Assembly: GCF_036826855.1 (NCBI RefSeq)
Contig: NZ_CP104578.1
Coordinates: 4,313,501-4,377,500, forward strand
Direction: 5' to 3'
DNA from: Streptomyces sp. SJL17-4
GTDB lineage: Bacteria; Actinomycetota; Actinomycetes; Streptomycetales; Streptomycetaceae
DNA: 64,000 nt
The translations under genes were made by a program, and so were the position numbers. How positions within the stretch are numbered: position 1 is the first letter of the stretch; each line of letters begins with the position of its first letter. Below, in pieces: positions 4,711-7,898 of this stretch. Under the pieces are notes generated by a model. That model was given only the letters and a program-made list of their open reading frames with translations, did not search any database and was not told the origin of the DNA.

Positions 4711-4739
4711 GGCCCGCGACTCCCCCGGGGTCGCGGGCC
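4711..4739. terminator. Hairpin terminator between membrane-protein gene and thiC remnant
   Basis: A 10-bp perfect stem GGCCCGCGAC / GTCGCGGGCC with a CCCCCGGG-type loop, between convergent genes. Its stem sequence closely matches the hairpin at 6031-6063 that follows intact thiC, which suggests this was the original thiC terminator. Confidence 0.75.
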
Positions 4740-4760
4740 GGCTCGGTCTCCGGGCGGTGG

Positions 4761-4895
4761 TCAGTCCGCCAGCGGGAGGTACACGCGGTTGCCCGTCGCC
4801 GCGAACTCGGCCGACTTCGCGGCCATCCCCGCCTCGATCTCGTCCGCCTTCAGATCGCCACCGTGCTCCCGCCGGATGTCCTGCGAGATCTTCAT
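4761..4895 (-). pseudogene. Detached, diverged copy of the thiC 3' end
   Basis: The reading frame encodes 44 residues from MKISQDIRREHGG to [10 protein letters not shown], matching the ThiC C-terminus. Aligned by hand with the intact gene (end at 6087) about 29 of 46 positions agree, including the last 10 residues and EIEAGM. Upstream of MKIS similarity stops at the 3' end of the beta-propeller gene. The remnant keeps MKISQDIR, closer to the usual ThiC pattern than the MKISRSIT of the intact gene, so this may be the ancestral end. Its ATG overlaps the TGA of the propeller gene (ATGA), so a short peptide could still be translated. Confidence 0.8.
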
Positions 4896-5935
4896 CGACT
4901 GAAGGATTCCTCTGGAGACGGACGCGAAGCCGGCTGAGGAAGCGCAATGATCGCGATTCCGTCCTGCTGGGCTACCGCCAGACGGCTACCGTCCGGATGA
5001 AGCGCAGCCACGGGAGTCGGTACGTGCCTCACCCCGTAGCTGCCGACGCGCGGTGAGACCCCGACCTCCGGCCACTCCGCAAGAACGGCTCCCGTGGGCG
5101 CATCGATCAGCCGCGGGTGCTCGCACAGCACGATGACGCCATCACCGTGCCCGATGAGTGTGCCCATCGGAAGCTCAAGCTGGTGCCTGTGCAGCCATCT
5201 CTGCTCCGACAACGACCACACGCCCAAATGCCTGGGCCCCAGCGTTGCCGGGTCGTCCGCGTCGTCATCGTCGGCCTCGTCCTCGCCCGTCGCCACCGCC
5301 AGGCGATCGCCGTCGAGCCAACAGGCGGCATCGATTTCGGCATCCACCCAGCTCCACGACGGCAGTAGGCCCTCACCGTCGAGCACGGTCGGCTCTGTCA
5401 GTGCCCGTTCGAGGTCGTACACCCGGGCGATCCCGAACGGACTCCACAGCCAGCCGGCCGAGAGGAGCCGCTTGCCGTCGGGGCTCATGGCAAGCCTGGA
5501 ATGGAAGACGTCAGTCGGCGTCCGCTCGCCATGAGTGAGCCGCTCACCCGTTGCCACGTCCTCGACTTCGATGACTTCATAGGCGTCGGGACAGTGCACC
5601 AGCACCTCCCGACCGTCGGAGAGCGCGCCCAGCACCACCGGGTAGTCGAAGTCCTTGGCGTGGTAGCAGCTCCGGTTGAGCTCACGGACGATCCGCTGTC
5701 CGTCGAGGAGTAGTGCCTTCGTCCCCCGCTCGGTGTACGCGACGGTGTACCGGCCGGACGGCGAGACGACGGCCCGATCGAAGGGGTACGCGTACATGCG
5801 TCCTGATGGGTGCTCGACGCCGTCGGACGTCCAGCGCCGTCCCCCGTCCACTCTGTCGACGAGGTCCTCCCCGTCCCATGCCAACGACCGCACCTTGCCC
5901 GTCGCCTTCCACCGCACCACCCCGGTGCTGCCCAT
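4892..5935 (-). CDS. Beta-propeller (WD40-like) protein of unknown function
   Basis: A 347-residue cytoplasmic protein without signal peptide or membrane helix. At least four propeller-blade motifs of the type (S/H)PDGxxLAVA can be seen: VSPSGRYTVAYT, AMSPDGKRLLSAG, WLDGDRLAVATG and LHPDGSRLAVAQQ. An acidic run (DEADDDDADD) sits about residue 235. The ATG at 5935 has a strong GGAGGGGGG 4 bases upstream. Such proteins usually act as binding scaffolds; no enzyme motif is visible. The gene lies between two copies of the thiC 3' end and terminator and reads in the thiC direction, so it looks like cargo of an insertion or recombination event. The function is unknown. Confidence 0.75.
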   Translation of the reverse strand: MGSTGVVRWKATGKVRSLAWDGEDLVDRVDGGRRWTSDGVEHPSGRMYAYPFDRAVVSPSGRYTVAYTERGTKALLLDGQRIVRELNRSCYHAKDFDYPVVLGALSDGREVLVHCPDAYEVIEVEDVATGERLTHGERTPTDVFHSRLAMSPDGKRLLSAGWLWSPFGIARVYDLERALTEPTVLDGEGLLPSWSWVDAEIDAACWLDGDRLAVATGEDEADDDDADDPATLGPRHLGVWSLSEQRWLHRHQLELPMGTLIGHGDGVIVLCEHPRLIDAPTGAVLAEWPEVGVSPRVGSYGVRHVPTPVAALHPDGSRLAVAQQDGIAIIALPQPASRPSPEESFSR

Positions 5936-6030
5936 CGATCCCCCCTCCGCATACGGCCTCAGTCGGCCGCGCGCCTGCGCCTGAATGTATTCGAAGCAGG
6001 GGATCCAACAGTCGGGCCGGGATCGGAGGC

Positions 6031-6063
6031 GGGCCCGTGACTCCCCCCGTGAGTCGCGGGCCC
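6031..6063 (-). terminator. thiC hairpin terminator
   Basis: Stem GGGCCCGTGACTC / GAGTCGCGGGCCC with one mismatch, loop of 7, starting 24 bases after the thiC stop codon (6087-6089). It is a diverged duplicate of the 4711-4739 hairpin. Confidence 0.75.
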
Positions 6064-6086
6064 ATCTCGTGCTTCCAGTCGCCGGA

Positions 6087-7898
6087 TCAGTCCGCCAGTG
6101 GCAGGTAGACGCGGTTGCCGGAGGCCGCGAACTCCTTCGACTTCTCCAGCATCCCGGCCTCGATCTCCTCCGGGGTGGCGTCCGCTTCACCGCCGAACTG
6201 CTCTGTGATGCTTCTGCTGATCTTCATCGAGCAGAACTTCGGACCGCACATCGAGCAGAAGTGCGCGGTCTTCGCGGGCTCCGCCGGCAGCGTCTCGTCG
6301 TGGAACTCACGCGCGGTGTCCGGGTCGAGCGCCAGGTTGAACTGGTCCTCCCAGCGGAACTCGAACCGCGCGTCCGACAGCGCGTCGTCCCACTCCTGCG
6401 CACCCGGGTGCCCCTTGGCGAGGTCCGCCGCGTGGGCCGCGATCTTGTACGTGATGACACCGGTCTTCACGTCGTCGCGGTTCGGCAGGCCCAGGTGCTC
6501 CTTGGGCGTGACGTAGCAGAGCATCGCCGTGCCCCACCAGGCGATCATCGCCGCGCCGATGCCGGAGGTGATGTGGTCGTACGCGGGCGCGACATCCGTG
6601 GTCAGCGGGCCGAGCGTGTAGAACGGCGCCTCCTCGCAGATCTCCTGCTGGAGGTCGATGTTCTCCTTGATCTTGTGCATCGGGACGTGCCCGGGGCCCT
6701 CGATCATCGTCTGCACGTTGTGCCGCTTGGCGATCGTGTTCAACTCGCCGAGCGTGCGCAGCTCCGCGAACTGCGCCGCGTCGTTGGCGTCCGCGATCGA
6801 GCCGGGGCGCAGCCCGTCGCCCAGCGAGTACGTGACGTCGTACGTCGCGAGGATCTCGCAGAGCTCCTCGAAGTGCGTGTAGAGGAAGTTCTCCTTGTGG
6901 TGCGCGAGACACCAGGCGGCCATGATCGAGCCGCCGCGCGAGACGATGCCGGTCTTGCGGCGCGCGGTGAGGGGCACATACGGCAGGAGTACGCCGGCGT
7001 GCACCGTCATGTAGTCCACGCCCTGCTCGGCCTGCTCGATGACCGTGTCCTTGTAGATCTCCCAGGTCAGGTCCTCGGCCCGGCCGTCGACCTTCTCCAG
7101 CGCCTGGTAGAGCGGCACGGTGCCGATGGGCACCGGGGAGTTGCGCAGGACCCACTCGCGGGTGGTGTGGATGTTGCGGCCGGTGGACAGGTCCATGACC
7201 GTGTCGGCGCCCCACTTGGTCGCCCAGGTCATCTTCTCCACCTCCTCCTCGATGGAGGAGGTGACGGCGGAGTTGCCGATGTTGGCGTTGACCTTCACCA
7301 GGAACCGCTTGCCGATGATCATCGGCTCGATCTCCGGGTGGTTGACGTTCGCCGGGAGCACGGCGCGGCCCGCGGCGATCTCCTCCCGTACGACCTCGGG
7401 GGAGACGTTCTCCCGGATCGCCACGTACTCCATCTCCGGGGTGATCTCACCCCGGCGGGCGTACGCGAGCTGGGTTACGGCCTGGCCGTCGCGGCCGCGG
7501 CGGGGCACGCGCGGCCGTCCGGGGAAGACGGCGTCGAGGTTCTTGAGCCCCCCGCCGCGCGGCGAGGTGTGCTTGATGCCGTCGTCCTCGGGACGGGCCG
7601 GGCGGCCCGCGTACTCCTCGGTGTCGCCGCGCCCGATGATCCAGTTCTCGCGCAGCGGCGGAAGGCCCCGCCGTACGTCGGTGTCGACGGTGGGGTCGGT
7701 GTACGGGCCGGACGTGTCGTACAGCGTGACGTCCTTGCCGTTGGTGAGGTGCACCTGACGGACCGGCACCCTGAGGTCGGGGCGCGAGCCCTGGACGTAC
7801 CCCTTGTGCCAGCCCGGCGTGCGGGCGCCGTCGGCAGAGGTGCCGTCTGCAGTGTCGTTCTGCTCGGAGGCAGGCGTGCGTGCATCCTGAATGGTCAT
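6087..7898 (-). CDS. thiC: Phosphomethylpyrimidine synthase ThiC
   Basis: A 603-residue radical-SAM enzyme that rearranges 5-aminoimidazole ribotide to hydroxymethylpyrimidine phosphate, the pyrimidine half of thiamine. The C-terminal 4Fe-4S cluster motif CSMCGPKFC (Cx2Cx4C) is present near residue 550, and the ThiC core blocks [11 protein letters not shown] and IEGPGHVPM are intact. Length is normal for the family. Start ATG 7898 lies just below a TPP riboswitch (7910-8033). The last 45 residues ([13 protein letters not shown] onward) are less like the family norm than the detached copy at 4761-4895, suggesting that the 3' end was replaced. It is transcribed alone and ends at a hairpin. Confidence 0.97.

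Follow-up and report, generated by a model that had tools for sequence, protein, structure and literature searches.

A putative attachment site for serine-integrase elements within thiC of Streptomyces, and an integrase-less cassette that appears to occupy it in Streptomyces sp. SJL17-4

In staphylococci, the units of the staphylococcal cassette chromosome (SCC) are inserted by serine recombinases (ccr) at the 3' end of rlmH, where recombinase-less units and composite arrays also occur, and in integrons a tyrosine integrase acts on the folded attC sites of one-gene cassettes. Features of both can be recognized at the thiC gene of Streptomyces sp. SJL17-4, in the stretch of 64,000 nucleotides analysed here (contig NZ_CP104578.1, positions 4,313,501 to 4,377,500; hereafter the window), where thiC carries an exchanged 3' end and is followed by a small insert with a single cargo gene. 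The likeness to SCC lies in the serine recombinases, the 3' end of a housekeeping gene, the units without recombinase and the composite arrays; the host, ccr and rlmH are different, however, SCC units are much larger, and at thiC the replaced gene tail comprises 44-50 codons. The window insert itself is no SCC unit, as its target is thiC and no recombinase is present in it. With integron cassettes the thiC inserts share the one-gene units, a common recombination arm, a varied cargo and an enzyme that would be encoded elsewhere, but instead of a tyrosine integrase and folded attC sites the thiC system has a large serine integrase family and a double-stranded palindromic attB.

Among the closest described systems are the actinomycete integrative and conjugative elements (AICEs). 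According to Ghinet et al. (2011, PMC3218068), 19 of the 144 AICEs have serine recombinases and some of these reside in protein-coding genes; the words thiC and thiamine do not appear in its text. These AICEs likewise unite an integrase, a RepSA-type replication protein and an FtsK-type TraB in one integrating element, whereas the thiC element also swaps the tail of a gene and the window insert has none of the AICE genes. Integrase-less relics, named cis-mobilizable elements (CIMEs), and their accretion are known as well (PMC5704250). They likewise form integrase-less units at the site of an integrating element and stack in tandem at the 3' end of a gene, but a CIME keeps attL and attR of its parent, whereas in the thiC cassettes the far arm is unlike that of AICEs and is common to cassettes with different cargo. 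At a Streptomyces tRNA gene, AICEs have been reported to stack (PMC9513070). A description of thiC as integration site was not recognised in literature searches, where most subscription papers lay out of reach, and neither the integrase group, the tail swap nor small cassettes that share an arm were found in the literature searched.

We propose, with a probability of roughly 0.8, that thiC is the attB of a family of serine-integrase elements and that the window insert is an integrase-less cassette at that site. The layout of the window (Table 1) provides the first line of evidence. The 3' end of thiC is present in direct repeat (4761-4846 versus 6087-6172, 83% identity across 86 nt), as are the starts of the hairpins behind it (4711-4726 versus 6032-6047, 94% identity), and the second copy of the last 141 nt of thiC plus hairpin (4895-4709) is found about 1.33 kb downstream of the gene. 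A whole-genome search with the thiC tail (E of at most 10) returned three matches, of which the two tails were significant and the third had an E of 0.64. The exact 12-mer TCGATGAAGATC is found at both junctions (4898-4887 and 6230-6219), and upstream of it the aligned copies diverge sharply. In thiC this core spans the codons S-M-K-I, right after the cysteine-rich CSMCGPKFC that we take to be the iron-sulphur motif of ThiC, and the first ~25 nt of the new tail are presumed to hold the right half of the element attachment site. At the far junction the TGA stop codon of the cargo gene (4894-4892) falls inside the core. The initial annotation, made from the DNA alone, had thus rightly described the thiC 3' end and hairpin as present twice. 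Its duplicated terminator is putative: each copy is followed by a hairpin that folds strongly (-39.6 kcal/mol, z -2.4, and -34.7 kcal/mol, z -2.3), but a scan for T-run terminators found none. It had also reported that no integrase is present, and indeed there is none in the insert, nor did the genome yield a match to the thiC-site serine integrase at an E of at most 1e-3 with one query, other integrases of the window not having been searched for.

Table 1. Features of the thiC region, in window coordinates
Feature	Positions	Strand	Basis or remark
thiC, full length, element-type tail	6087..7898	-	PF01964 and PF13667; body 96-98% identical to relatives
New thiC tail, 46 residues and stop, brought by the element	6087..6227	-	nearest to the L041 and L034 tails; rare codons
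Core TCGATGAAGATC, thiC-side junction	6219..6230	-	exact 12-mer
Hairpin behind the new tail	6032..6062	-	alignment and folding
Inserted element (1332 bp, given a crossover at the AA of ATGAAGAT)	4892..6223	-	empty site in six relatives; exact cut inferred
Cargo gene, WD40-like propeller, 347 aa	4892..5935	-	Pfam, AlphaFold model
Cassette end arm, conserved among cassettes	4899..4919	-	leave-one-family-out p 0.0027 for the window locus
Core TCGATGAAGATC, far junction	4887..4898	-	exact 12-mer; homology to relatives resumes here
Stranded native thiC tail, 44 residues and stop	4761..4895	-	protein identical to the thiC ends of six relatives
Native hairpin behind the stranded tail	4709..4741	-	alignment and folding
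Native downstream neighbour, convergent gene, used as flank marker	4042..4701	+	no Pfam match

A comparison with related strains shows that the tail on thiC is foreign and that the stranded tail is the native one. All of the six near relatives (thiC body 96-98% identical; 6/6) have an empty site. Homology to them covers thiC, breaks at the insert and resumes at window position 4898, the first base of the core, to run on through 3801, where the compared piece ends; in the L066 alignment this second homologous stretch is split in two pieces. The peptide of the stranded tail is 100% identical to the intact ThiC ends of the six relatives, in line with the earlier remark that the detached copy is more like a normal ThiC, and the tail as such is 93-96% identical to their thiC ends. 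The tail now on thiC is nearest to the detached tail of locus L041 (genome G153; 94.3%) and to the AICE-borne tail of L034 (G098; 93.6%), the hosts of which have thiC bodies 90% and 93% identical to that of the window, respectively. The two tails, for which the initial annotation had suggested a comparison along with a search for strains lacking the insert, hence do not group together. Moreover, in a tree of 120 thiC bodies, which left out seven duplicate loci (L004-L009, L021), the window locus is located inside a nine-row set (SH-aLRT 95), the other eight members of which have a native tail, no insert, and a downstream gene at 36-147 bp from thiC.

The arrangement is recurrent within the genus. 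A search with the thiC tail in 392 Streptomyces genomes gave a match in 387, and two or three tails were found in 34. In 28 of these 34 the extra tail shares contig and strand with thiC and lies downstream of it (two, G165 and G043, being weak matches), in two on another contig (G217, G142), and in four elsewhere or within further full genes (G101, G104, G161, G025); three tails each are present at L041, L049 and L059. All undamaged detached tails have their junction at the same ATGAAGAT. On the thiC-body tree the presence of inserts (set by hand, 27 of 120 rows) requires 25 changes and the inserts are therefore scattered. The distance between thiC and the conserved downstream gene was dropped as a measure of insertion, a gene family (F0, 22 loci) being common in between. 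Two side observations concern additional copies. At L062 (G101, C1:3026500-3033000) two element-type thiC tails with cargo lie more than 1 Mb from the intact thiC, an array that may have been moved by rearrangement or may have been inserted elsewhere. Genome G025 has two more apparently full-length thiC genes with element-type tails (C1:70969 and C3:117219), besides a thiC with a native-type tail.

The enzyme lacking from the window insert is found in its larger sisters. An integrase gene begins next to the detached tail and points towards the interior of the element; its product is about 520 aa long and in L034 has the resolvase, recombinase and zinc-ribbon domains (PF00239, PF07508, PF13408) that characterize a large serine integrase. 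The missing integrase of the window insert is thus explained by reference to the sister inserts at the same site, which carry one. Ten of the 392 genomes encode an integrase with 76% or more identity to the query, each time with a (detached) thiC tail within 1.5 kb (10/10), and none of 20 fetched distant relatives (at most 46% identical) adjoins a thiC tail; those at L095-L114, with 39-46% identity, were seen away from thiC. In the inserts as fetched, RepSA, whole or partial, is present in nine of the ten and FtsK in five, where L063 is a cut piece of which the longer copy L182 does contain FtsK. The large sister inserts accordingly have the replication protein, FtsK/TraB and integrase of an AICE, in full or as pieces, with the Pfam search for AICE functions run on the proteins of L034 and L060. 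The thiC inserts L053 and L181 have the integrase with no match to RepSA, FtsK or GntR, and constitute intermediates between AICE and cassette. A scan of genomes of named GTDB species yielded 19 integrase loci, all in Streptomyces and 74-100% identical, a set that overlaps with the 392 genomes (six contigs are equal in length). A detached thiC tail stands beside the integrase in all 19, a thiC with element-type tail lies inside the fetched flank in 11, FtsK is found in 11 and RepSA, whole or partial, in 17. In three of them (L188, L189, L193) the stranded tail is not of the native type and the element therefore entered a thiC that had been changed previously, which indicates that the site is usable after a swap. 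A phage or plasmid origin of the integrase was considered and rejected, all phage and plasmid matches being below 60% identity (the 20 phage matches listed at 29-32%, the 16 plasmid matches listed at 42% or less). That the integrase acts at the short thiC core is suggested by its position and by the palindrome described below.

The codons of the tails point to a constraint on the DNA itself. In element-type tails serine 4 is encoded by AGC or AGT in 83 of 83 cases and serine 6 in 75 of 83, codons that make up some 4% of the serine codons in the thiC body. At codon 5, 25 of the 83 have CAA (1% usage) and 12 have AGA (usage under 1%); at codon 8, 36 have ACA (2% usage). In native tails, serine 4 is TCG, TCC or TCT in 41 of 41 rows. 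These counts keep the seven duplicate loci (41 native rows, about 34 distinct; 128 rows for the attB consensus) and are inflated by kinship among the element-type rows. Such rare codons would be fixed because an attachment or binding site constrains the DNA, which protein constraint alone would not achieve. In agreement with a site of this kind, attB is an imperfect palindrome about the AA of ATGAAGAT, with 11 of 20 symmetric positions in each of four rows, and the reconstructed element site of the window scores 10 of 20 (p 0.013, one of 21 tests).

Small core-bounded thiC inserts of 0.9-3.7 kb, without integrase and with other cargo, occur in thirteen genomes including that of the window: L033, L039, L040, L041 (two in tandem), L045, L046, L047, L048, L049, L051, L054, L055 and L065, the window locus; a similar array, though distant from thiC, is present at L062. 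None of 17 small-insert loci gave a match to RepSA, FtsK, GntR or the integrase. Their cargo is varied and includes the propeller in three, a DUF4240 protein in two genomes, a DUF885 protein, a zinc-type oxidoreductase with a regulator, lipoproteins and others; a PIN-domain pair is the cargo of L036, the detached tail of which is damaged. Cargo families moreover reappear in changing combinations, with F11 in L045 and L049, F12 in L049 and L074, and F1 (the propeller) in L074 and five other loci. The underlying cargo table omits L033, L034, L035, L037, L038, L043, L044, L052, L060 and L061, as well as loci with the flank gene not found or within 700 bp. The different inserts nevertheless end alike: over positions -24 to -4 the end arms of 11 cassettes with different cargo hold 11.6 bits versus 4.2 +- 0.6 for random cargo windows (z 11.7), and when each arm was compared after leaving out its own cargo family, all 15 beat the null (p < 0.03). 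At the inner positions these 15 arms match the left half of attB at 56% versus the AICE arm at 40%, and the outer motif of AICEs is missing from them (24% of positions on average). The arm tests omit loci with a detached tail devoid of ATGAAGAT (L036, L050, L053, L056, L058, L059, L061).

The cargo protein of the window matches the Pfam WD40 family weakly, with a score that falls short of the cut-off (E 0.005). Its AlphaFold model, built on an alignment from which homologues with in-frame stops were left out, has a mean pLDDT of 66 and a pTM of 0.73, and the structural matches are WD40 propellers. The protein is thus probably a WD40-like propeller, by a model of moderate confidence, so that the propeller gene reported earlier between the two copies is supported by the modelled structure, but not by a convincing Pfam score. 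The family occurs in 14 genomes, and in five of these other than that of the window it adjoins thiC or lies within about 2 kb of it, as the initial annotation had suggested looking for. In the fetched ~6 kb around the propeller relatives L075-L077 and L079-L084 (eight genomes) no thiC tail was present. Locus L073 (G383) has the same propeller cassette as the window, with 89% DNA identity, next to a thiC with a native tail, and its detached tail is reduced to a scrap; this thiC looks like the product of a later repair.

Taken together, the following course of events is the most probable. The S-M-K-I codons of thiC would be the chromosomal attB of Streptomyces integrative elements with a large serine integrase of their own. 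The incoming circle would carry a replacement thiC tail, a hairpin and one or more genes, and would recombine with thiC at the core, the exact cut presumably lying at the AA of ATGAAGAT. Upon insertion thiC would receive the tail of the circle and stay full length, and the old tail would become stranded at the far side. Autonomous members would be AICE-like, with RepSA, FtsK/TraB, GntR and an integrase that inserts them. The window element would be a small member without integrase, in which a single propeller gene and a short end arm accompany the replacement tail. Cassettes of this type would need an enzyme from elsewhere, and we infer that the integrase of an AICE, or a relative, moves them in trans. 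Further insertions at the far junction would probably build arrays, since the B-like end arm of a cassette makes that junction attB-like again. The most elaborate form of the proposal, an integron-like system of single-gene cassettes at thiC that runs on a serine integrase and a housekeeping gene, in which replacement tails carry a P' half-site and conserved end arms a B-like half-site, in which arrays grow away from thiC and visiting AICEs move the cassettes in trans, is tentative, and we would put it somewhat below even odds.

Several observations weigh against the proposal that thiC is the attB of such a family and the window insert a cassette in it. Tails of one type cluster on the tree (12 changes versus a shuffled mean of 29.6), and 19 of 60 further loci with an element-type tail have no insert (flank gene within 700 bp); many such tails are therefore merely inherited from old swaps. 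The symmetry of the reconstructed element sites is weak, with a combined z of 2.1 for eight AICEs and 3.6 for thirteen cassettes (L063 omitted). The arm of the window is among the least typical, with 5 of 17 attB-like and 7 of 16 AICE-like positions. The 13 cassette genomes all lack an integrase of at least 76% identity (the one in G153 reaches 38%), and mobilisation was not seen. Finally, AGC or AGT encodes the serine that precedes the core in seven of 30 junction pairs (L035, L039, L040, L046, L048, L181, L192), and AGC is also found at the detached junction in five of these seven versus none of the 23 others (p 1.5e-4, related rows counted singly); among the 41 native-tail rows this codon is never AGC. 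A cut at the AA does not predict this pattern.

The strongest competitor is decay: an autonomous AICE, inserted by its own integrase, would have lost everything except one cargo gene and would survive as a CIME-like relic. A graded series does exist, from the RepSA- and FtsK-bearing integrase inserts (9/10 and 5/10) to those with the integrase alone (L053, L181), and the close match of the window tail to an AICE-borne tail (93.6%) fits as well. By gene content the window insert is not an AICE, having the propeller gene only, with no match to the thiC-site integrase in the genome, and it resembles a CIME in that the integration and transfer genes are missing. Its thiC side is like an AICE attL. 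A relic should, however, also keep the end arm of the AICE, whereas the 15 cassette arms lack the outer motif and match the left half of attB better. Furthermore, the 17 small-insert loci have none of the AICE genes, and the cargo of 15 tested small-insert loci is absent from 27 integrase loci, where hits traced to overlap with the tail or to a host gene further downstream (L033, L046 and L058 were omitted from the query set). As the arms are shared across cargo and unlike the AICE arm, the cassette set is not plainly one of decayed AICEs; the arms disfavour decay for the set, and the window's own arm is equivocal, with no clear preference for AICE or attB. For the window insert we consider decay unlikely, though a serious contender.

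Much less probable is ordinary homologous recombination of foreign thiC DNA with its cargo, in which the junction would merely mark the limit of homology. The conservation of thiC would allow it, and G383 and others, with native thiC tails beside cassette remains, look like cases of repair by homologous exchange. Yet all undamaged cases share a junction at the same ATGAAGAT, thiC homology upstream of the detached tail does not exceed about 20 nt, which would leave a single crossover without a partner, and in sister inserts an integrase sits at exactly the same site. The initial annotation had proposed that foreign DNA recombined into thiC; the new tail and the stranded old one bear this out, but the event differs from ordinary recombination in that a fixed core was the point of insertion, and it is one of many. 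That the thiC end was duplicated in tandem long ago, around a gene already resident there, as the two direct-repeat copies might have suggested, is ruled out for practical purposes by the six empty sites of relatives without a second copy, by a stranded tail 93-96% identical to theirs next to a thiC tail of another type, and by the nesting of the window locus among uninserted loci.

Insertion at thiC thus names a recurrent insertion site of Streptomyces together with its likely integrase, and the two would constitute a new integrase/attB pair for strain engineering. It also shows that a core enzyme of vitamin B1 synthesis has its C-terminal tail exchanged incidentally by mobile DNA, and the end of ThiC therefore does not share the course of the remaining gene. 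If the cassettes are moved in trans, they would represent a gene-cassette system that runs on a serine integrase, unlike the integrons with their tyrosine integrase. The cargo, i.e. the propeller, the DUF4240 protein, the PIN-domain pair, the oxidoreductase, the lipoproteins and the DUF885 protein, would in that case consist of accessory genes that are moved one or two at once.

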